64,000 nucleotides of DNA, taken from contig NZ_POQT01000003.1 of NCBI RefSeq assembly GCF_002938435.1, positions 124,001 to 188,000 of the forward strand. Direction: 5' to 3'. The DNA is from Blastococcus saxobsidens. GTDB taxonomy: Bacteria > Actinomycetota > Actinomycetes > Mycobacteriales > Geodermatophilaceae. Of this stretch, positions 1,995-32,853 are shown piece after piece. The first letter of the stretch is position 1. Every line of letters starts with the position of its first letter. Below the pieces are notes generated by a model, which saw nothing but the letters and a program-made list of their open reading frames with translations, was not told the origin of the DNA and did not search any database. A program made the translations under genes and the position numbers.

Positions 1995-2759
1995 GTGTCC
2001 GCACCAGAGATCTCCACAACGCCGTTCACCGTCCTGCTGGTGTGCACGGGCAACATCTGCCGGTCCGCGCTCGGCGAGCGTCTGGGGACCACCTATCTGC
2101 ACGACGCCCTCGGGGCGGCAGCGGGCGACATCCGCCTGGCCAGCGCCGGCACGCGCGCGCTCAGCGGCTCGGGGATGCACCCTGACACCGCACTTGTCCT
2201 GCAGGGTCTGGGTGGCGATCCCACCGGGTTCACGGCCCGGCAGCTCGAGCCGGGCATGATCGAGGACGCCGATCTGGTGCTCGCCCTGACGCGGGAGCAC
2301 CGTCGCACGGTGCTGGAACTGGTGCCGCGCGCGCTGTCCCGCACGTTCACCCTGCGGGAGGCGGTGGCCCTGGTCGACGTCGTCGACGACGGCGACCGCC
2401 CGGCAGGAGCGGACTTCGCGAGCCGGGCACGCGGACTCGTCGCGGCCCTGGCGGCGGCGCGTGGCCGGCGAGCGAGTGACGCCGACGACGACATCACCGA
2501 CCCGATGGGTCGGCCGGTCGAGGCGCACCAGGAGGTCGGGCAGGACGTCGCCGAGGCGCTGCTCCGCGTGCTCGCGGAGCTGATCGCGGCCCATCCGGAG
2601 CTCGACCCCGAGGTCGCGGCCTCGGTCGCCGCCTCGTTCCTGCACGAGGCTCCCGCCAGCGCCCTCGTCGACGACGTGCCGGCGGATGACCGCCGGCCGG
2701 AGCGCCGGCGTCGGTTGCGACCCTTCGGGCTCCTCGGTCGGCGCGGCGCCAGCGCCTGA
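1995..2759 (+). CDS. Low-molecular-weight protein tyrosine phosphatase, long form
   Basis: A 254-residue LMW-PTP. The P-loop VCTGNICRSALGERLG near residues 15-30 carries the catalytic Cys and Arg of the CX5R motif. SAGTRALSG, DADLVLALTREHR and a late DPMG acid-loop aspartate follow. Such enzymes dephosphorylate BY-kinases of exopolysaccharide export in the cytoplasm. Compared with the usual 150 or so residues it has about 40 extra residues before the acid loop and a roughly 80-residue C-terminal extension ending in an Arg-rich stretch. Two similarly enlarged relatives lie at 13.3 and 30.8 kb. The GTG start has no Shine-Dalgarno and may be leaderless. It is divergent from the ATP-grasp gene. 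Confidence 0.88.
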   Translation: MSAPEISTTPFTVLLVCTGNICRSALGERLGTTYLHDALGAAAGDIRLASAGTRALSGSGMHPDTALVLQGLGGDPTGFTARQLEPGMIEDADLVLALTREHRRTVLELVPRALSRTFTLREAVALVDVVDDGDRPAGADFASRARGLVAALAAARGRRASDADDDITDPMGRPVEAHQEVGQDVAEALLRVLAELIAAHPELDPEVAASVAASFLHEAPASALVDDVPADDRRPERRRRLRPFGLLGRRGASA

Positions 2760-5915: not shown

Positions 5916-7097
5916 TCAGTCGGGGGTGGCCCCCGAGTCGGCGACGCCGCCGACGACGGCAGGGACGAAGTCGAGACCGGCCCGGCCCGCCGAGCCCCCG
6001 GCCGACGCGGGGAAACCCGCGTCCAGGATGGCGAGGGACGAGTCCGAGTCGTGCGCTCCGTGCCCGTGCCCGCAGAGGGCGCCGCCGGACGCCGACGTCG
6101 CGGTCGGTGACGCTGGTGGCGCCGGTGCGGGAGCAGGGGAGGAGTACGGGAGGCCTACGGGTCCGGCGGGCGCGAAGGGCCTCACCGGATGCGGGAACGG
6201 CTCGTGGCGCGGCTGAGCCTGCCCGGTGGCGACGATCGGCTCGTCGTCCGCTCCGCTCTGCTGCACAGCAGCACCACCGGGCGAGGCCTGCGCCGGGCTG
6301 CGGGCGGCACCCGGGGCCGGCTCGGCGACCGGGGGAGGGCCGGCCGGGGGTGCCGGCGCGGAGATCTCAGGACCCGGCGCCGGGCCGACGGCCGCCGGTG
6401 CCGGCTCGGTGGCTGTGGCGACCGGCCCGGCCGTTGCGGATCCGGTGACGGGAGGTGCCGCGCCGGCGGCTGTTCCGTCGCCGGCCGACTCCTCGGCGGC
6501 TGTTCCGTCGCCGGCCGACTCCTCGGCGGCCGGTCCCTCGGCGGCCGGTCCCTCGCCGGCCGACTCCTCGGCGGGTGACTCCTCGGCGGGCGACTCCTCG
6601 GCGGGCGGCGCGGCGCTGGGTGGTGCTCCCGCTGATCCGTCGTCGGCCACCGGCGCCGGGGCAGGCGGCACCGCTGTTCCCGAGGCGGCAGGCTCCGGCT
6701 CGACCGGATCGGCGCCGGTCACGATGTCGTCGATCGGGATCGCCGCCGCCGGCAGGACCTGGCTCGATCGTCCCGCGGGCGCGGGCACCGAGCCCGGCGG
6801 CATGCTGGCAGCAGCCGTGGCCGCCGAGGGAGGCACACCGCCCTCCGCCGGCGCATCCGGCGGAACGGCGGTCGTCGGCGGGAGCAGGACGGCGGTCGGC
6901 CCGGCATCACGGGTGGCCGGCTCCGACGATCCGGCGGGCCGCTCCTGCTGGGGCGACGTGTGGTGAACGCCCTGCTGGCCCTGCTCGGCCAGCGCGACGT
7001 CGGCCACCGTCACGAGCGCTGCGCAGAGGCCGAGCAGGAGCAGGCCGGTGAGCAGGAGGCGCCGCTGCCACGACGGAGCCGCGGTCGACGGACTCAC
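5916..7097 (-). CDS. Exported low-complexity protein with pentapeptide repeats
   Basis: About 393 residues. A clear signal or anchor segment (WQRRLLLTGLLLLGLCAALV) is followed by a Pro/Ala/Glu/Gly-rich chain. The middle contains five-residue units of the type EESPA, EESAG, EGPAA and DGTAA, encoded by 15-bp and 30-bp DNA repeats at 6466-6615. The last 45 residues (from about DSDSSLAILDAGFPA) are more ordinary and could be a short functional tail. No known domain is recognised; a cell-wall spacer or secreted mucin-like role is possible. The start is uncertain. GTG at 7097 gives a compact signal peptide, while TTG at 7160 has GGAG six bases upstream but a long N-terminus. Confidence 0.55.
   Translation of the reverse strand: MSPSTAAPSWQRRLLLTGLLLLGLCAALVTVADVALAEQGQQGVHHTSPQQERPAGSSEPATRDAGPTAVLLPPTTAVPPDAPAEGGVPPSAATAAASMPPGSVPAPAGRSSQVLPAAAIPIDDIVTGADPVEPEPAASGTAVPPAPAPVADDGSAGAPPSAAPPAEESPAEESPAEESAGEGPAAEGPAAEESAGDGTAAEESAGDGTAAGAAPPVTGSATAGPVATATEPAPAAVGPAPGPEISAPAPPAGPPPVAEPAPGAARSPAQASPGGAAVQQSGADDEPIVATGQAQPRHEPFPHPVRPFAPAGPVGLPYSSPAPAPAPPASPTATSASGGALCGHGHGAHDSDSSLAILDAGFPASAGGSAGRAGLDFVPAVVGGVADSGATPD
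6466..6615. repeat. Tandem 15/30-bp coding repeats
   Basis: A 30-bp unit is present twice without change (6466-6495 and 6496-6525). It is followed by several 15-bp units differing by one to three bases (two identical copies at 6526-6555). All are in frame with the exported low-complexity protein and encode its pentapeptide repeats. Confidence 0.8.
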
Positions 7098-7364
7098 GGC
7101 AGCCCGGGGCGAGGCGTGGCCATGGGGCCGCCCCCTCGCCGCCGTGCTGCATGAGTGCAAGTCGTGCTCCTGCCGGATTCCCCCGAACGATCGTTCTTCG
7201 TGCGCAACGATCGGCGGGACTCCGAACCGGAACAACCCCTGCCCGTAAATGAACGGTGAACACGAGCGACGCGCGGCCCGGGCTCACGCTCCGTGACCGC
7301 GATCAGCGGGTCCGTGCGACCACGGTCGGCCGGTATCCCGACCACCGGCGCGAGCCACGCTGGA

Positions 7365-7526
7365 TCAGAGGCCGGATCGCACGACGCCGCAGCGGCAGCG
7401 GTACAGCGAGCCGTTGCCGAACGGGTCCTCGCCGTGCCAGCGGAACCAGTGCGCGTGCGTCCTGGCCGCAGCGCCGGACGCAGGGCGCGCCGGCCGTTGC
7501 AGGGACAGGTGGAACTGCCTGGTCAT
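7365..7526 (-). CDS. 53-residue HWFRW/CRCG mini-protein
   Basis: A very small protein whose C-terminal half reads HAHWFRWHGEDPFGNGSLYRCRCGVVRSGL in two adjoining blocks (His-Trp core, then a CxC motif close to the end). A 55-residue relative at 32573-32740 keeps the pattern HWFRWxGxDPFxxxSLYxCRCGVVRxGL, so this is a real conserved family although I do not recognise a described function. The His and the two Cys could bind a metal, possibly as a dimer. The ATG at 7526 has a strong GGAGGGA ribosome site. It overlaps the preceding membrane gene by four bases (ATGA), so the two are translationally coupled. Confidence 0.72.
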   Translation of the reverse strand: MTRQFHLSLQRPARPASGAAARTHAHWFRWHGEDPFGNGSLYRCRCGVVRSGL

Positions 7527-7747
7527 CGACGTTCCCTCCTGCTCCGCGGACGACGCGGGGCCGGTAGTTCGATCATCTGGGACTGTGTCTGCGGGTCTGC
7601 CCAGTCGGCCGGCACGCCGTCCGGGGCGTCGAGGGGGTCCTGCGGCGGTTGCCGGCGGTCGGCGAGCTGGATCGAGCGCCCGACCGCCCACCCCACGAGG
7701 ACGGCGAGCGCCACCCACGCAGCTCCGATGACCAGCAACCAGGTCAT
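7523..7747 (-). CDS. 74-residue single-pass membrane protein
   Basis: The first 25 residues form a membrane segment (TWLLVIGAAWVALAVLVGW), followed at once by GRSIQLADRR and a Pro/Gln/Arg-rich cytoplasmic tail. The same layout, VxxGxxWxALAV then G-(R/S)-S-I-x-x-A-D-x-R, occurs in the 80-residue protein at 9123-9365 and at the N-terminus of the multi-pass protein at 31690. Function unknown. It is coupled by a 4-base overlap to the CRCG mini-protein downstream, which suggests that the two work together, perhaps as membrane anchor and metal-binding partner. Confidence 0.7.
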   Translation of the reverse strand: MTWLLVIGAAWVALAVLVGWAVGRSIQLADRRQPPQDPLDAPDGVPADWADPQTQSQMIELPAPRRPRSRRERR

Positions 7748-7874
7748 GGCACCGGACCTTCCGGACTGGAAGGCGGACCGCTTCTTCGATCCGACCAGCT
7801 CGCACCGGAGAACGAACGAGCGACCGCGGCGGTGCCCTTACCCGTTCCGGACGGAGCCCAACCCCACGGCGCCG

Positions 7875-9014
7875 CTACCGGGGTACGTCGGGCAGCGCCT
7901 CGTTGGCGAACTCGTCGGCGTTCTGGCCCAGGGAATCGCTGCGCAGGTACTCCCACATGCGCTGCCCGGCGGTCTGGTCCAAGTACACGACGCTGGCCGG
8001 GCCCTCCATCCCGGTGCCCAGCACCGGGGCGGTGAAGAACTCGACGCGCTCCGGGGTCAGGTTGCGCAGTGAGTAGGTGAGGGACAGGAGTTCGCCGTTG
8101 CCCAGCCGGTCGTCCAGCGCGACCGCACTGGTGACGGCCAGCAGCGCGGCGTCCAGGCGCGCCGGGTCGGTGAAGGTGTCAGAGCTGAAAAGCTTGCCGA
8201 ACATCGCCTGCAGGTACTGCTGCTGCCGGCGGACCCGGTCGAAGTCGCCACCCGTCAGCCCGTAGCGCTGTCCCAGATACCACCGGGCCTGCTCCCCGTC
8301 GAGGTGGTTCACGCCTGCTGGGAACGTGTACGGGCCGTTCGACGTCGTCTGCGCGACCACCACGTCCACCCCGCCGAGGTCGTCGGTCACCTGGATCAGG
8401 CCGTCGAAGTCGATCGCCGCGTAGTGGTCGATGCGTACCCCGGTGAGTTCTTCGACCGTCTGGATCAGCAGGCTCGGCCCGCCGAAGGAGTAGGCGGCGT
8501 TGATCTTGTTCATCCCCCGCCCGGGGATGTCGACCCAGCTGTCGCGGGGGATCGAGATGACCTGAGCGTGCCGGCGGTCGGCCGAGAAGCGGGCCAGCAT
8601 GATCGCGTCCGAGCGGCCGTCCGGCGTCTCGCCCGGCTCGAGGTCTGCCCGGGAGTCCGAGCCCACCAGGAGGAAGGTGACCGGGTCCTCGGCCGCAGCC
8701 TGCTCGGGGGTGGCCGGTGCCGGGCGAGCGTCCTCGTCGATGTCGGCGAACACGTCGCTGACGCGCTCGATGTTGCCGGCGTAGCGCTCGGTCAGGTACC
8801 AGAGGCCGCCTCCGACGAGCAGGAGCAGCACGGCCGTCAGCGCACCCAGGGCGATCAGAACCTTGCGGAACTGGCGCTTGCGGGGGGTGGGATCCGCGTC
8901 GTCGTCCGTGAAGGAGTCCAGTGGAGGGCGCTCGCCGTCCGCGGCCGGCACTGCCGTCGCGCGGTCGGGCCCGACGTCATCGGGCGTCGTCGCGCCCGGT
9001 CCTTCCGTGCTCAT
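7875..9014 (-). CDS. LytR-CpsA-Psr (LCP) family glycopolymer ligase 1
   Basis: A 379-residue protein. The N-terminal tail of about 50 residues is acidic and Pro-rich. One membrane segment follows (VLIALGALTAVLLLLVGGGLWYL), then an extracellular LCP domain. That domain has FLLVGSDSRAD, GRSDAIMLARF, VISIPRDSWVDIPG, KINAAYSFGG and YAAIDFDGLIQVTDDLGGVDV, with the Arg and Asp residues that bind the polyprenyl-pyrophosphate head group. LCP enzymes move glycopolymers from the lipid carrier to peptidoglycan, or to arabinogalactan in some actinobacteria. The ATG at 9014 has GGGGGA upstream; a GTG at 9041 is possible. It closely resembles the second LCP at 29.7 kb. Confidence 0.93.
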   Translation of the reverse strand: MSTEGPGATTPDDVGPDRATAVPAADGERPPLDSFTDDDADPTPRKRQFRKVLIALGALTAVLLLLVGGGLWYLTERYAGNIERVSDVFADIDEDARPAPATPEQAAAEDPVTFLLVGSDSRADLEPGETPDGRSDAIMLARFSADRRHAQVISIPRDSWVDIPGRGMNKINAAYSFGGPSLLIQTVEELTGVRIDHYAAIDFDGLIQVTDDLGGVDVVVAQTTSNGPYTFPAGVNHLDGEQARWYLGQRYGLTGGDFDRVRRQQQYLQAMFGKLFSSDTFTDPARLDAALLAVTSAVALDDRLGNGELLSLTYSLRNLTPERVEFFTAPVLGTGMEGPASVVYLDQTAGQRMWEYLRSDSLGQNADEFANEALPDVPR

Positions 9015-9122
9015 GGGTCCCCCGTCCGGCCTGTCCGGCACCGAAGGTACCGCCGGTGTGGCCGCCGGCCGACCGGTTCTGCTTCCGTCGGGTGAGCTCG
9101 GGGACGAGAGGCGTGGAGTGCG

Positions 9123-9365
9123 TCAGCCCTGACGAACGGAGCGGCCGGTGCGCGGCGCGAGCAGCAGCGCCGGCGCTCCGGCGGTGTCCACCGACGGCGG
9201 CGCCGGCAGCGGCGCGGCGAACGGGTTGCCATCGACGACGAAGTTGCGTGCGGCGTTCGTGGCCGTCTGTCGCGCATCGGCCAGGCGGATGCTGCTCCCC
9301 AGGAGGAGGGCGAACCCCACCGCGAGTGCCAGCCACACCGCTCCGACTACGACCATCGCGCTCAT
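9123..9365 (-). CDS. 80-residue single-pass membrane protein
   Basis: It starts with a membrane segment (SAMVVVGAVWLALAVGFALLLG) followed by SSIRLADARQ, the same anchor motif as in the genes at 7523 and 31690. The remaining 45 residues are Ala/Pro-rich with no recognisable domain. The ATG at 9365 has AAGGA five bases upstream, so it is well supported as a translated gene. It lies upstream of LCP ligase 1 on the same strand with a gap of about 110 bases. Unlike its relatives it has no CRCG mini-protein partner. Function unknown. Confidence 0.65.
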   Translation of the reverse strand: MSAMVVVGAVWLALAVGFALLLGSSIRLADARQTATNAARNFVVDGNPFAAPLPAPPSVDTAGAPALLLAPRTGRSVRQG

Positions 9366-9602
9366 GTGTCCTTCTTAGGGGAGGGGCACGTCGCCCCCTC
9401 GGTTCCGGCCCGGCATGGCTTGCCGAAATCAGGTGGGAGGTTCTGTGATCGGCCTCCATGCCCGGTACGGGAGTGGTTCATGCATCAGCAGGGGCGGCTG
9501 GGGCGTTACCCGGCCGTGCACGCGCCGGTGACCAGGGGCAGAACCCCTGCGGGGCCGGCCGGCGATACCGAGCCGGACCGGTCCTCCCGTACCTTCCGCG
9601 GC
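9366..9602. other. Intergenic region between divergent genes
   Basis: 237 bases between two divergent genes. It holds a leaderless -10 for the rightward gene at its right end and a GC-rich inverted repeat (GAGGGG/CCCCTC) near 9380. No coding sequence could be supported. Confidence 0.4.
9590..9602 (+). promoter_or_regulatory. Leaderless promoter -10 box (TACCTT)
   Basis: TACCTT at 9590-9595 is seven bases before the ATG at 9603. There is no Shine-Dalgarno, which supports a leaderless transcript. Confidence 0.5.
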
Positions 9603-12263
<2,661 letters not shown>

Positions 12264-13338: not shown

Positions 13339-14028
13339 CTACCGGGAGGCGGCAGGCAGCGCACGCGCCGGGACGGGAGGCCGGGCAGGGACCGGAGGAA
13401 GGTTCCTCGCCGTGCCCACCTGGGTGTCGGCCAGGTCGACCGGCGCCTCGGCACTCGTTCCGCAGAGGGCCTGCAGCAGGGGGATCAGCGCGCCGAAGAT
13501 CTGGTCGCCGACCTCCTGGTGGACCGTAGCGGCGTGACCCATGGGGTCGACCACGTCGTCGGACTCCCGCTCTGCCAGGCGGCGCGTCGCCCGCTGCGCG
13601 CCCAGGGCGGCGACCAGGGCCTTCGCCCGCTCGTCCAAGGCGCCGACCGGGGGGAGCGCACGGAGGTCGACACCTTCGAGCAGTTCCGCGGCCTCCCGCA
13701 GGGTGTAGGTGCGGAACATGGCCCGCGGGGCGAGCTTGAGCGCCGAGCGACGGTGCCGACGAGTCATCGTCAGCGTGAGATCCGCGGCGTCGACGAGGTC
13801 GCCGGTGAGCTGCTGGGCGGTGAAGCCGGCCGGGTCCCCACCCAGGCCCGCCAGCACGCGCGCCGAGGAGGGCTCCATGCCACTCCCGACGACCGCGTGC
13901 GTCCCGGCGCTCGACGTCCCGACCACGGCTGCCGAGGCGCCGAGCGTGTCGTCGAGGAAGGCCCGGGTGAGCCGCTCCCCCATGGGAGAGCGGCAGATGT
14001 TCCCGGTACAGACGAAGAGGATGCGCAC
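13339..14028 (-). CDS. Low-molecular-weight protein tyrosine phosphatase, long form (Wzb-like)
   Basis: A 229-residue LMW-PTP. FVCTGNICRSPMGERLT at residues 5-21 is the complete catalytic P-loop. SAGTHAVVGSGMEP, DAADLTLTMTRRHR and the acid loop DPMG at about 167 follow. About 40 residues are inserted before the acid loop relative to the classical enzyme, and the C-terminus is Pro/Ala-rich. It is divergent from the BY-kinase gene, so it is the natural candidate for the Wzb partner that removes phosphates from the kinase's tyrosine cluster. GTG start at 14028. Confidence 0.9.
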   Translation of the reverse strand: MRILFVCTGNICRSPMGERLTRAFLDDTLGASAAVVGTSSAGTHAVVGSGMEPSSARVLAGLGGDPAGFTAQQLTGDLVDAADLTLTMTRRHRRSALKLAPRAMFRTYTLREAAELLEGVDLRALPPVGALDERAKALVAALGAQRATRRLAERESDDVVDPMGHAATVHQEVGDQIFGALIPLLQALCGTSAEAPVDLADTQVGTARNLPPVPARPPVPARALPAASR

Positions 14029-29719: not shown

Positions 29720-30778
29720 GTGAGATCCCGATGGTCGGAAGTCCTCGACGACGAGGCCGAGGTCACGGAGAACCCGCTCCGGAGCCGGCGGAGGCGACGG
29801 CTGCTCCAGTCACTGGCCGCCGGCGTGGTGGTGGCTCTGCTCCTCGTGGGGGGCGCGGCCTGGTATTTGACAGACCGGTACGCGGGCGGCCTCGAGCGCC
29901 TGGACGGCGTCTTCGCCGGCCTGGACGAGACCCAACGACCGGCGGCTCCGACCGGTCCTGCCCGAACGGCCCTCACGTTCCTCGTCGTCGGATCGGACAC
30001 GCGCGCCGATGTCCCCGAGGGCGAGCGTCCGGACGGTCGCTCGGACGTGATGATGCTGGTCCGGGTCACCGCTGACCGCCAGAACGCTCAGGTGATCTCG
30101 CTGCCCCGGGATTCATGGGTCTCCATCCCCGGGATGGGCATGGCAAAGCTGAACGCGGCCTACGCCTACGGTGGGCCCACGCTGTTGGTGCAGACCGTCG
30201 AGAACCTGACCGGCGTCCGCGTCGACCACTACGCCGCCATCGACTTCCAGGGCTTCGTGCAGATGACCGACTCGCTCGGCGGGGTGGACGTCCAGGTCGC
30301 CGAGGCGACGAGCAACGGCCCGTACACCTACGAGGCGGGACTGAACCACCTCGACGGTGACGAGGCGCTGAACTACGTCCGTCAGCGGTACGGACTCCCG
30401 GGCGGGGACTTCGACCGGGTCAAGCGCCAGCAGCAGTACCTGCGTTCGGTGTTCGGTGCGCTCTCCCAGCAGAACGTCCTCACCGACATGGGTGCCCTCG
30501 GTGGGTTCATGGACGCCCTCACCGGCGCGATGGCCGTGGACGAGCAGCTGTCGAACGCCGACCTGATCCAGATGGCCTACGACATGCGGTCGTTGCGCCC
30601 GGACGCCCTCACGTTCCTGACCGCGCCGGTCGCCGGCACCGGTCGGGAAGGCGCGCAGAGCGTCGTCTACCTCGATCCGGCCCGCTCGGCACAGATGTGG
30701 AACCACCTTCGCGCCGACTCGCTGGGCGAGCACGCGGCTGAATTCGCCGTCGACGCGTTGCCTGCGGTGCCGAACTAG
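29720..30778 (+). CDS. LytR-CpsA-Psr (LCP) family glycopolymer ligase 2
   Basis: A 352-residue paralogue of the LCP protein at 7.9 kb, sharing its whole layout: short acidic/basic tail, one membrane helix (GVVVALLLVGGAAWYLTDRYAG), then the LCP domain. FLVVGSDTRAD, GRSDVMMLVRV, VISLPRDSWVSIPG, KLNAAYAYGG and YAAIDFQGFVQMTDSLGGVDV are present, so the catalytic Arg/Asp set is complete. It should attach the exported polymer to peptidoglycan or arabinogalactan. The GTG at 29720 has an excellent GGAAGGGGGG ribosome site. The end overlaps the convergent phosphatase gene by four bases. Confidence 0.93.
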   Translation: MRSRWSEVLDDEAEVTENPLRSRRRRRLLQSLAAGVVVALLLVGGAAWYLTDRYAGGLERLDGVFAGLDETQRPAAPTGPARTALTFLVVGSDTRADVPEGERPDGRSDVMMLVRVTADRQNAQVISLPRDSWVSIPGMGMAKLNAAYAYGGPTLLVQTVENLTGVRVDHYAAIDFQGFVQMTDSLGGVDVQVAEATSNGPYTYEAGLNHLDGDEALNYVRQRYGLPGGDFDRVKRQQQYLRSVFGALSQQNVLTDMGALGGFMDALTGAMAVDEQLSNADLIQMAYDMRSLRPDALTFLTAPVAGTGREGAQSVVYLDPARSAQMWNHLRADSLGEHAAEFAVDALPAVPN

Positions 30779-31473
30779 CTCGGCCGGGGCACCGGTGGGA
30801 TCCGGGGCATCCGGACCGTCTCGTCGCTGAGCGGCGTGCGGTCCTCCAGCAGCGGGAAGACGAGCTCGAGCGCGGTCACGATCTGGTCGACGGCCTCGGC
30901 GTGCACCCGTGAGGACCCCTCGATGGGGTCCGGCACGTCGAACTGCGGCCCGCGGGACCGCGCGTACCGTGCCCGTGCCTCGCCGAGGGCCTGGGCGAGC
31001 TCAGCCCCCCGCCGGTGTGCCGAGTCGGGGGACCAGTCCTGTCCCAGCGTCTGTGCCAGCGCAGCGGCCTCCATGACGGTGAAGACCTTCTGGAGCCCGC
31101 GGGGACTGATCCCCGCCACCTCGTCGCGATGCTCGCCGGTCATCGTCAGCACGAGGTCGGCCCAGTCGACGTCGGCGTCCGACAGGCGCCGGGAGGCGAA
31201 GCCGTCGGCCCGGACCCCGTGCCGGGCCAGCGCGCGTTCGGTGCGGGGGTGCATGGGTCGACCGGGGCGTGCCTGGGTTCCGGCGCTGCGCGCCTCCACC
31301 CGCAGATCGCCGTCGGCGGTCCAGGCGCGGAGGAGTCGTTCGGCGGCTGCGGAGCGGCAGATGTTGCCGGTGCAGACGAAGAGCACCTTCGCGGTCGTCT
31401 GCTGCGGATACGTGGACACCGGGGCCCAGCCTATGCCGGAAGCTGGGGCTACCGGAGCAGGCGGCAGTCCCAT
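30775..31473 (-). CDS. Low-molecular-weight protein tyrosine phosphatase, long form
   Basis: A 232-residue LMW-PTP. The P-loop FVCTGNICRSAAAERLL lies near residues 31-47. SAGTQARPGRPMHP, DADVDWADLVLTMTGEHR and the acid loop VPDPIEG at about 190 follow. As in the two other phosphatases of this window, extra residues separate the WADLVLTMT block from the acid loop. The ATG at 31473 has AGGA seven bases upstream; GTG at 31419 would give a shorter protein. The convergent overlap with LCP ligase 2 is four bases. Target probably a BY-kinase or another cytoplasmic tyrosine-phosphorylated protein. Confidence 0.87.
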   Translation of the reverse strand: MGLPPAPVAPASGIGWAPVSTYPQQTTAKVLFVCTGNICRSAAAERLLRAWTADGDLRVEARSAGTQARPGRPMHPRTERALARHGVRADGFASRRLSDADVDWADLVLTMTGEHRDEVAGISPRGLQKVFTVMEAAALAQTLGQDWSPDSAHRRGAELAQALGEARARYARSRGPQFDVPDPIEGSSRVHAEAVDQIVTALELVFPLLEDRTPLSDETVRMPRIPPVPRPS

Positions 31474-31689: not shown

Positions 31690-32559
31690 GTGTGGTGGCT
31701 CTGGGTCGTGGGTGGACTGGTCGCGTGGTTCGTCCTCGCCTTCGGGCTGGCGGTCGTCATCGGCCGGGGCATCCGCACCGCTGACCTCCGAACCCCCGAC
31801 TCGACGGGCGTGCTGACGACCGAGGCCCTCGCCCCACAGGCCGCCCCCGCGCGCGTGCGCCGCCGTGCCGTGCCGCTGCCCCCCATCGGGATCGCACTCG
31901 CCGCCCTCGCCGTCGGCCTGATGACCGTCGGCTACGGCTTCCGGCTCTCCGGCACCTCGGGGCCGCTCGCCCAGGCGCTCTCCATGGACGCCCCCTTCTC
32001 GCTGCCGCGCATGTACGTGGCGGCGCTCTTCGCTGCCGCCGCGCTGGCCGCCGTCGCCGGCGCGGGCACCACCCGGCGCACCTGGTGGCTGGGTGTCGGC
32101 ATCGTGGCCGCCGGGATCGCGGCCGTGAAGGCGGGCAGCACCGTGCACGTCGACACGATGGCGGCGCTGGGCTCCGCGATCGGCGGACACGCAGCCGTGC
32201 TGATCAGCGTGGCCGTCGCCGTCGCCGTCGTCTCCGCCCTGTTCTTCCTCAGCCGCACCGATCGCCGTGACCGGCGGCGCGTCCTCGGCGCCCTCACCGG
32301 TTACGCCGCCGCCTCGGTCGGGCTCTCCGCCCTCAGCGGCGTCGCCCCCGGCGGCTGGGCGGTGACGGCCACCTACCTCGAGGAGTCCGGCGAGGCGCTG
32401 GCCGGCGTCGCGTTCCTCGTCGCCGTGCTCGTCGGCGTCGCCCCGCGCCTGGTGCTCCCGGCCGACTGGGCGCTGCGCCGAGCCGCCGACACCGAGACCC
32501 TCGACGTCCGCGACGCCCTTCCGGGCCGTCCCACGACCGGGGACGCGTTCCGCGGCTGA
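31690..32559 (+). CDS. Multi-pass membrane protein with GxGIxxADxR anchor motif
   Basis: A 289-residue protein with seven or eight hydrophobic segments and no family I can name. The first segment and following turn (LWVVGGLVAWFVLAFGLA, then GRGIRTADLR) match the anchor of the small proteins at 7523 and 9123. After a linker rich in Ala and Arg, the remaining six or so helices have no recognisable motif. The C-terminus is short and charged. The GTG at 31690 lacks a ribosome site and may be leaderless (GATGAT six bases upstream, a poor match). It ends 13 bases from the convergent CRCG mini-protein gene, the second time an anchor-motif gene and a CRCG gene lie side by side. Confidence 0.65.
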   Translation: MWWLWVVGGLVAWFVLAFGLAVVIGRGIRTADLRTPDSTGVLTTEALAPQAAPARVRRRAVPLPPIGIALAALAVGLMTVGYGFRLSGTSGPLAQALSMDAPFSLPRMYVAALFAAAALAAVAGAGTTRRTWWLGVGIVAAGIAAVKAGSTVHVDTMAALGSAIGGHAAVLISVAVAVAVVSALFFLSRTDRRDRRRVLGALTGYAAASVGLSALSGVAPGGWAVTATYLEESGEALAGVAFLVAVLVGVAPRLVLPADWALRRAADTETLDVRDALPGRPTTGDAFRG

Positions 32560-32572
32560 CCGCCGGCAGCGG

Positions 32573-32740
32573 TCAGAGGCCGGGGCGCACCACGCCGCAC
32601 CGGCAGGCGTACAGACTCGACCCGCTGAACGGGTCGGCGCCGGACCAGCGGAACCAGTGCACGTGCCGGACGGCGATGGACGGCAGCCGCTGCTGACGGT
32701 CCGCGGCCGTTGCCGGAGCTGCCCCCGGACGTGTGTGCAT
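32573..32740 (-). CDS. 55-residue HWFRW/CRCG mini-protein (second copy)
   Basis: The C-terminal 30 residues (HVHWFRWSGADPF then SGSSLYACRCGVVRPGL) match the 53-residue protein at 7365-7526 at most positions, while the N-terminal 25 residues are unrelated Ala/Arg-rich sequence. Conservation of such a short stretch in two distant places argues that both are translated. The CxC with nearby His residues could bind zinc or iron. The start at 32740 is inferred from length similarity and there is no strong ribosome site. Function unknown. Confidence 0.62.
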   Translation of the reverse strand: MHTRPGAAPATAADRQQRLPSIAVRHVHWFRWSGADPFSGSSLYACRCGVVRPGL

Positions 32741-32853
32741 GGCGGCAGTGTGCCATCGCAGGCAGCCGATCGGGGAGGGGGTTCCTGCTGTTCCCCCGAT
32801 GTTCGGCGGGCGGCCGCCGAAGAGGGGATGCCCCGCCGCCCCGCCGGTTCCGG

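Follow-up and report, generated by a model that had tools for sequence, protein, structure and literature searches.

The stretch of Blastococcus saxobsidens DNA analysed here (64,000 nt, the window) includes two very short overlapping genes close to a LytR-CpsA-Psr (LCP) gene, which raises the questions of whether their products belong to recognisable families and what the smaller one could do. The smaller gene (copy 1; 7365–7526, minus strand) encodes a 53-residue protein with an HxH...CxCG...R motif at the C-terminus, ending at the stop codon; this protein is designated CRCG below. It follows a gene for a 74-residue anchor with a single transmembrane (TM) segment (7523–7747, minus strand), whose stop codon and the start codon of copy 1 overlap in ATGA (7526–7523), and a Shine-Dalgarno sequence, AGGAGGG (minus strand, 7540–7534), is found 7 nt before the copy 1 ATG. 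With the LCP gene (7875–9041; PF03816, E 2.8e-45 for 7875–8951; start codon uncertain) and a second single-TM anchor gene of 80 residues (9123–9365), the minus strand carries, in this order, anchor (9365–9123), LCP (9041–7875), anchor (7747–7523) and CRCG (7526–7365). A second CRCG gene (copy 2; 32573–32740, minus strand, 55 residues) ends in the same motif and is convergent with the gene for c1, a polytopic membrane protein of 289 residues that begins with an anchor module (31690–32559, plus strand). The overlap, the strong ribosome site and the repeat of the motif at 32573, all claimed in the sequence-only reading, are thus borne out.

A genome-wide search found two strong CRCG copies, both in the window (E 4e-35 and 8e-12), the next match having E 0.3. 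In a tree of the core sequences, built on a short alignment and read without branch support values, the two copies fall in separate groups. Copy 1 is nearest to copies from loci L051 (18720), L052, L053 (6439), L054 and L055; an anchor is directly upstream of CRCG in L051, L052 and L054, and none is there in L053 and L055. The next same-strand gene after copy 1 is an ORF at 5916–7235 (minus strand) whose product has a single hydrophobic segment and a repeat tract rich in Ala, Pro and Glu, and an N-terminal segment resembling it, with Pro-rich repeats, occurs at 10415–11953 in L085. Three low-molecular-weight phosphatase-like genes lie in one envelope region of the window (2040–2759, 13339–14028 and 30775–31254) and cluster with L055 4818–5429 (PF01451).

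Of 112 genomes from the same bacterial family, 62 (in five of 12 genera) matched a profile of 51 sequences at E ≤ 1e-5; with the single 53-residue protein as query, 63 of the 112 matched at E ≤ 0.01. When 397 genomes sampled from the order were searched, 60 matched. Fifty of these are from the same family, with per-genome best E values between 2.4e-22 and 1.2e-10; the ten from outside it gave E ≥ 8.4e-4. The phylum sample of 396 genomes gave 12 matches; one is the genome of the window itself, and the remaining 11 reach E 2.7e-4 at best. Usually 19 candidates were scored per genome in the order and phylum searches, and distant copies could therefore be missed. Among the outside sequences inspected, which were three of the ten order matches (G139, G166 and G295) and all 11 phylum matches, with G166 in both sets, there was no convincing member. 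The G545 match (E 2.7e-4) shows the correct spacing of H, Y, C, C, G and R, yet is antisense to a 375-residue ORF, presumably for an aminotransferase-like protein (NPTGT, judged by eye). Likewise, the match in G166 keeps HxHxF and CxCG, yet is antisense to a 149-residue ORF that, by eye, we take to encode a MarR-like regulator; both matches were attributed to chance. An origin from phages or plasmids was rejected, as the 53-residue protein had no tblastn match in either and no confirmed relative in viral contigs.

Coding constraint was assessed on 66 cores. The pN/pS ratio was 0.60 in the CRCG frame and 0.95, 1.62, 1.12, 0.96 and 1.53 in the other five, and clear purifying selection was seen only in the former. 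This minimum, together with the matches in 62 of 112 genomes, indicates that the similarity is more than chance. CRCG is therefore a real, lineage-specific family of small proteins, and the confinement of the motif to a single genome, which the sequence-only reading had named as grounds for giving it up, did not occur; the motif search and the comparison with Pfam, NCBIfam and PHROG establish a conserved family that lacks a curated model. Since 50 of the 112 genomes have no match, CRCG would be dispensable or replaceable. Tandem CRCG pairs occur in L063 (7340–7813), L087 (7439–7903) and L086 (7258–7914), four copies within about 38 kb in G008 (one with a stop inside the match), and two degenerate copies beside an intact one in L081 (271–420 and 5695–5871).

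The conservation is concentrated in the last ~30 residues, HxHxFRWxGxDPFSGxSLYxCRCGVVRPGx-stop, and the N-terminal part is variable; where a leaderless-type start was placed (see below), the proteins have 41–64 residues. H, Y, C, C, G and R are invariant in the 51 aligned cores, a set chosen after six odd copies had been left out. With the two degenerate L081 copies set aside, HxH stands at a fixed spacing from CxC in 64 of 70 copies. It is shifted by two residues in L058 (6231) and L107, and one or both His are lost in four copies (one kept in L096 and L104, both missing in L106 and L110). The L106 (7631–7759) and L110 (7654–7905) copies keep the CxCG tail and have either decayed or are a variant without that ligand pair. 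The number of Cys residues is two in 61 of the 66 cores and three in the other five. The conserved HxH and CxC would supply the four ligands of a zinc-ribbon-like fold, which suggests that they may form a metal site. The likely ligands proposed earlier, CxC and a His, are well conserved in the family, the single His being refined to HxH. In the AlphaFold model, which is poor (pLDDT 58.6, 3 sequences), short strands (26–31, 41–44 and 49–51) flank CxC.

The surroundings of CRCG were studied in 61 sequences (60 stretches and the window) from 59 genomes. Eight envelope gene types (LCP, UGD, RmlB, RmlD, APS kinase, CysQ-like, sugar transferase and c1) were considered, and at least one of them was found within 6 kb of 68 of 72 CRCG hits and in none of 15 control regions, it being understood that the types were picked after the neighbours had been seen, that the gene models were built from the CRCG loci themselves and that each control was one region at chosen coordinates in one of 15 genomes. 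Two control regions held only a glycosyltransferase family outside the eight types. The four loci with none of the types within 6 kb are L061, L062, L069 and L092. The next gene varies by clade (a downstream UGD, APS kinase or LCP gene, or a convergent c1), and the locus stays the same. The association can partly reflect shared ancestry.

Based on these data, CRCG is most readily explained as a small accessory protein that acts in trans, binds metal and assists envelope glycopolymer assembly, a reading that we hold with moderate confidence. The protein would be small, basic and probably cytosolic, and its last ~30 residues would form a minimal fold binding a metal, probably zinc, through HxH and CxC. 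In trans, it would assist or regulate the locus that encodes it, the predicted functions of which are supply of rhamnose and UDP-glucuronate, sulfation and LCP ligation. Many copies would be transcribed from their own promoters into leaderless mRNAs, and copy 1 of the window would instead follow the LCP gene and the TM anchor, being translationally coupled to the latter.

The coupling to an anchor gene suggests a rival explanation. CRCG may be a soluble partner of the GxxIRxAD anchor, docking on its cytosolic tail, either free or fused to c1, and thereby controlling LCP or an export complex; this is possible, though we consider it unlikely. The anchor consensus, MxWxxxxxAxWxxLAxxxAxVxGRGIRLADxR, occurs three times in the window (7523–7747, 9123–9365 and the N-terminus of the 289-residue protein at 31690), with E 0.027 for the best of the remaining genomic matches. 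Of the genomes sampled, 48 of 51 in the family contain the anchor, and weak matches appeared in 13 of 247 others. Of the small anchors, 47 in all, 11 have an LCP gene ≤ 400 nt downstream on the same strand, as the partnership would suggest, and 11 adjoin CRCG, in three arrangements. c1 is convergent with CRCG in several loci of genus g1 and occurs in 96 of 112 genomes of the family; across the phylum, the genome of the window was the sole one of 198 to contain it. c1 is present in 61 of the 62 genomes with CRCG versus 35 of the 50 without it, a contrast weakened by incomplete genomes and shared ancestry. It has no significant Pfam family, and its predicted structure (pLDDT 43) was unusable.

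The coupled pair proposed in the sequence-only reading stands for the window and for L051 of G002, the only two genomes with the four-base ATGA/GTGA overlap, and is not supported in general. A looser order of anchor followed by CRCG on the same strand is seen in L052, L054 and L106 (the copy in L106 has no HxH), and six more loci have a divergent anchor. The co-occurrence that the earlier reading proposed to search for exists in moderate form only, an anchor being within 2 kb of 44 of 70 CRCG copies and of about 33% of points placed at random in these regions. Against the partnership, 15 of the 70 copies have no anchor in their examined stretch, genomes such as G011, G018 and G108–G111 have anchors and no CRCG, and G057 has CRCG and no match to the anchor or c1. 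As anchors are more widespread and also occur beside LCP or fused to a polytopic protein, anchor and CRCG are better regarded as separable modules of one locus.

The basic character of CRCG (pI > 11 for both copies in the window), zinc-finger-like ligands and the invariant Arg could also point to a mini zinc finger that binds nucleic acid sequence-specifically and regulates transcription of the locus. However, basic charge is common among small proteins encoded by high-GC genomes, and we regard this reading as doubtful. Besides the favoured accessory role, anchor partnership and nucleic-acid binding are the main forms left, and both overlap it.

The C-terminal location of the constraint and the frequent presence of APS kinase as the next gene make a cis-acting leader peptide, which would control that gene by nascent-chain arrest or cysteine-sensing attenuation, the most tempting alternative. 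The constrained part lies at a near-fixed distance from the stop, a co-directional gene begins ≤ 200 nt downstream of 39 of 70 copies and is the sulfur gene APS kinase in 15 of these, and Cys-rich upstream ORFs preceding cysteine-related genes have been proposed in mycobacteria (PMC4633059). The gene calls were made with a GC-position gene caller that misses some genes, including the repeat-rich ORF at 5916–7235, so that its next gene for window copy 1 is wrong. With the same imperfect caller, a convergent gene follows 23 of the 70 copies, 21 of them within 60 nt, whereas a leader would always be upstream of its regulated gene on one transcript. The cis leader is thus disfavoured.

Signals for expression bear on the same point. 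A CACACT- or CAGACT-like box was found 4–8 nt before an in-frame ATG or GTG in 30 of 69 CRCG loci, and in-frame −10-like boxes numbered 33 versus 2 and 3 in the other frames; these counts are descriptive, as the pattern was defined after the alignments had been seen and relatives are not independent. Copy 2 of the window has such a box at 32747–32752 (minus strand), 6 nt before its ATG (CACACT-GCCGCC-ATG), a putative leaderless promoter; the same scan gave no −10-like start box for copy 1. Leaderless translation in mycobacteria reportedly requires no more than a transcript that starts with ATG or GTG (PMC4633059), and the boxes suggest that many CRCG copies may have their own promoter and a leaderless mRNA. 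In 13 of 15 loci (exceptions L080 and L070) APS kinase is preceded by a CAGACT/CACACT-N6-7-ATG box of its own, located after the CRCG stop, which, with the change of downstream gene between clades, speaks against a leader. A recurring TTGCCAGACT-like box 6–7 nt before the APS kinase ATG, as in L093, L103 and L063, looks like a leaderless promoter. No leaderless-type box was found directly before the next gene, after the CRCG stop, for UGD (0/11) or LCP (0/5), and one transcript shared with CRCG is possible there, which leaves a leader role conceivable at those copies. On balance, regulation in cis is improbable.

A more elaborate form of the accessory role is conceivable, in which a lineage-specific envelope control module would report metal or thiol state from the HxH/CxC mini-protein to LCP and c1 via GxxIRxAD anchors, the variable N-terminus choosing the partner and the fixed C-terminus holding the sensor; we put this forward as a long shot. 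It is highly improbable that CRCG is no gene and that the conservation reflects a DNA or RNA element which is read in one frame. In favour of this are the longer open frames of high-GC DNA with which many copies overlap and the many starts other than ATG; against it, pN/pS is lowest in the CRCG frame, both AGC and TCG occur in a conserved Ser column, four codons occur in Gly and Arg columns, and window positions 7000–9500 have no Rfam match.

The bacterial group is known from desert soil and stone, and a literature search at limited depth gave no description of accessory proteins of its glycopolymer loci. CRCG, the GxxIRxAD anchor and c1 are exclusive or almost exclusive to a single bacterial family, and the three lend themselves to joint deletion and testing. 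Genes of the CRCG type are easily missed by annotation, being short and often without a leader.

Comparison with known families agrees with the sequence-only reading, which knew of no described function, as CRCG has no match below E 0.02 in Pfam, NCBIfam, PHROG or PADLOC (for PADLOC, P0001–P0003 only) and a literature search at limited depth found no description of the family. The weak PHROG matches are to phrog_22159, the widest (16 of 51 members, best E 0.063), and phrog_25407, with the lowest E (0.028; 4 of 51). There was no convincing match among PDB sequences; two matches to phospholipase A2 (E 0.028 and 0.041) have the YxCxCG loop alone in common and were ascribed to chance. Neither is there a Pfam match of CRCG or the anchor to LCP or another family, and no Pfam family stands out for the anchor; CRCG and LytR-CpsA-Psr loci are alike in their common genomic locus and differ in this respect.

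CRCG resembles zinc-ribbon and zinc-knuckle mini-proteins in having CxCG between short predicted strands, putative His ligands upstream and a small basic form, and is unlike them in having no convincing Pfam, NCBIfam or PHROG model. The mycobacterial copper metallothionein MymT has about 53 residues and a YxCxCG-like tail, and as generally described is similar to CRCG in these two features. However, metallothioneins have many Cys, and two in 61 of 66 cores are too few for a metal cluster, so CRCG is not assigned to them. A RiPP precursor was rejected too, CRCG having the opposite pattern, with a variable N-terminus and a conserved C-terminus. The small leaderless ORFs of mycobacteria described in PMC4633059 are, like CRCG, short and probably leaderless, and some contain Cys and lie upstream of sulfur genes; in contrast to them, an entire domain of 30 residues is preserved in CRCG, and its neighbour is often convergent with it.
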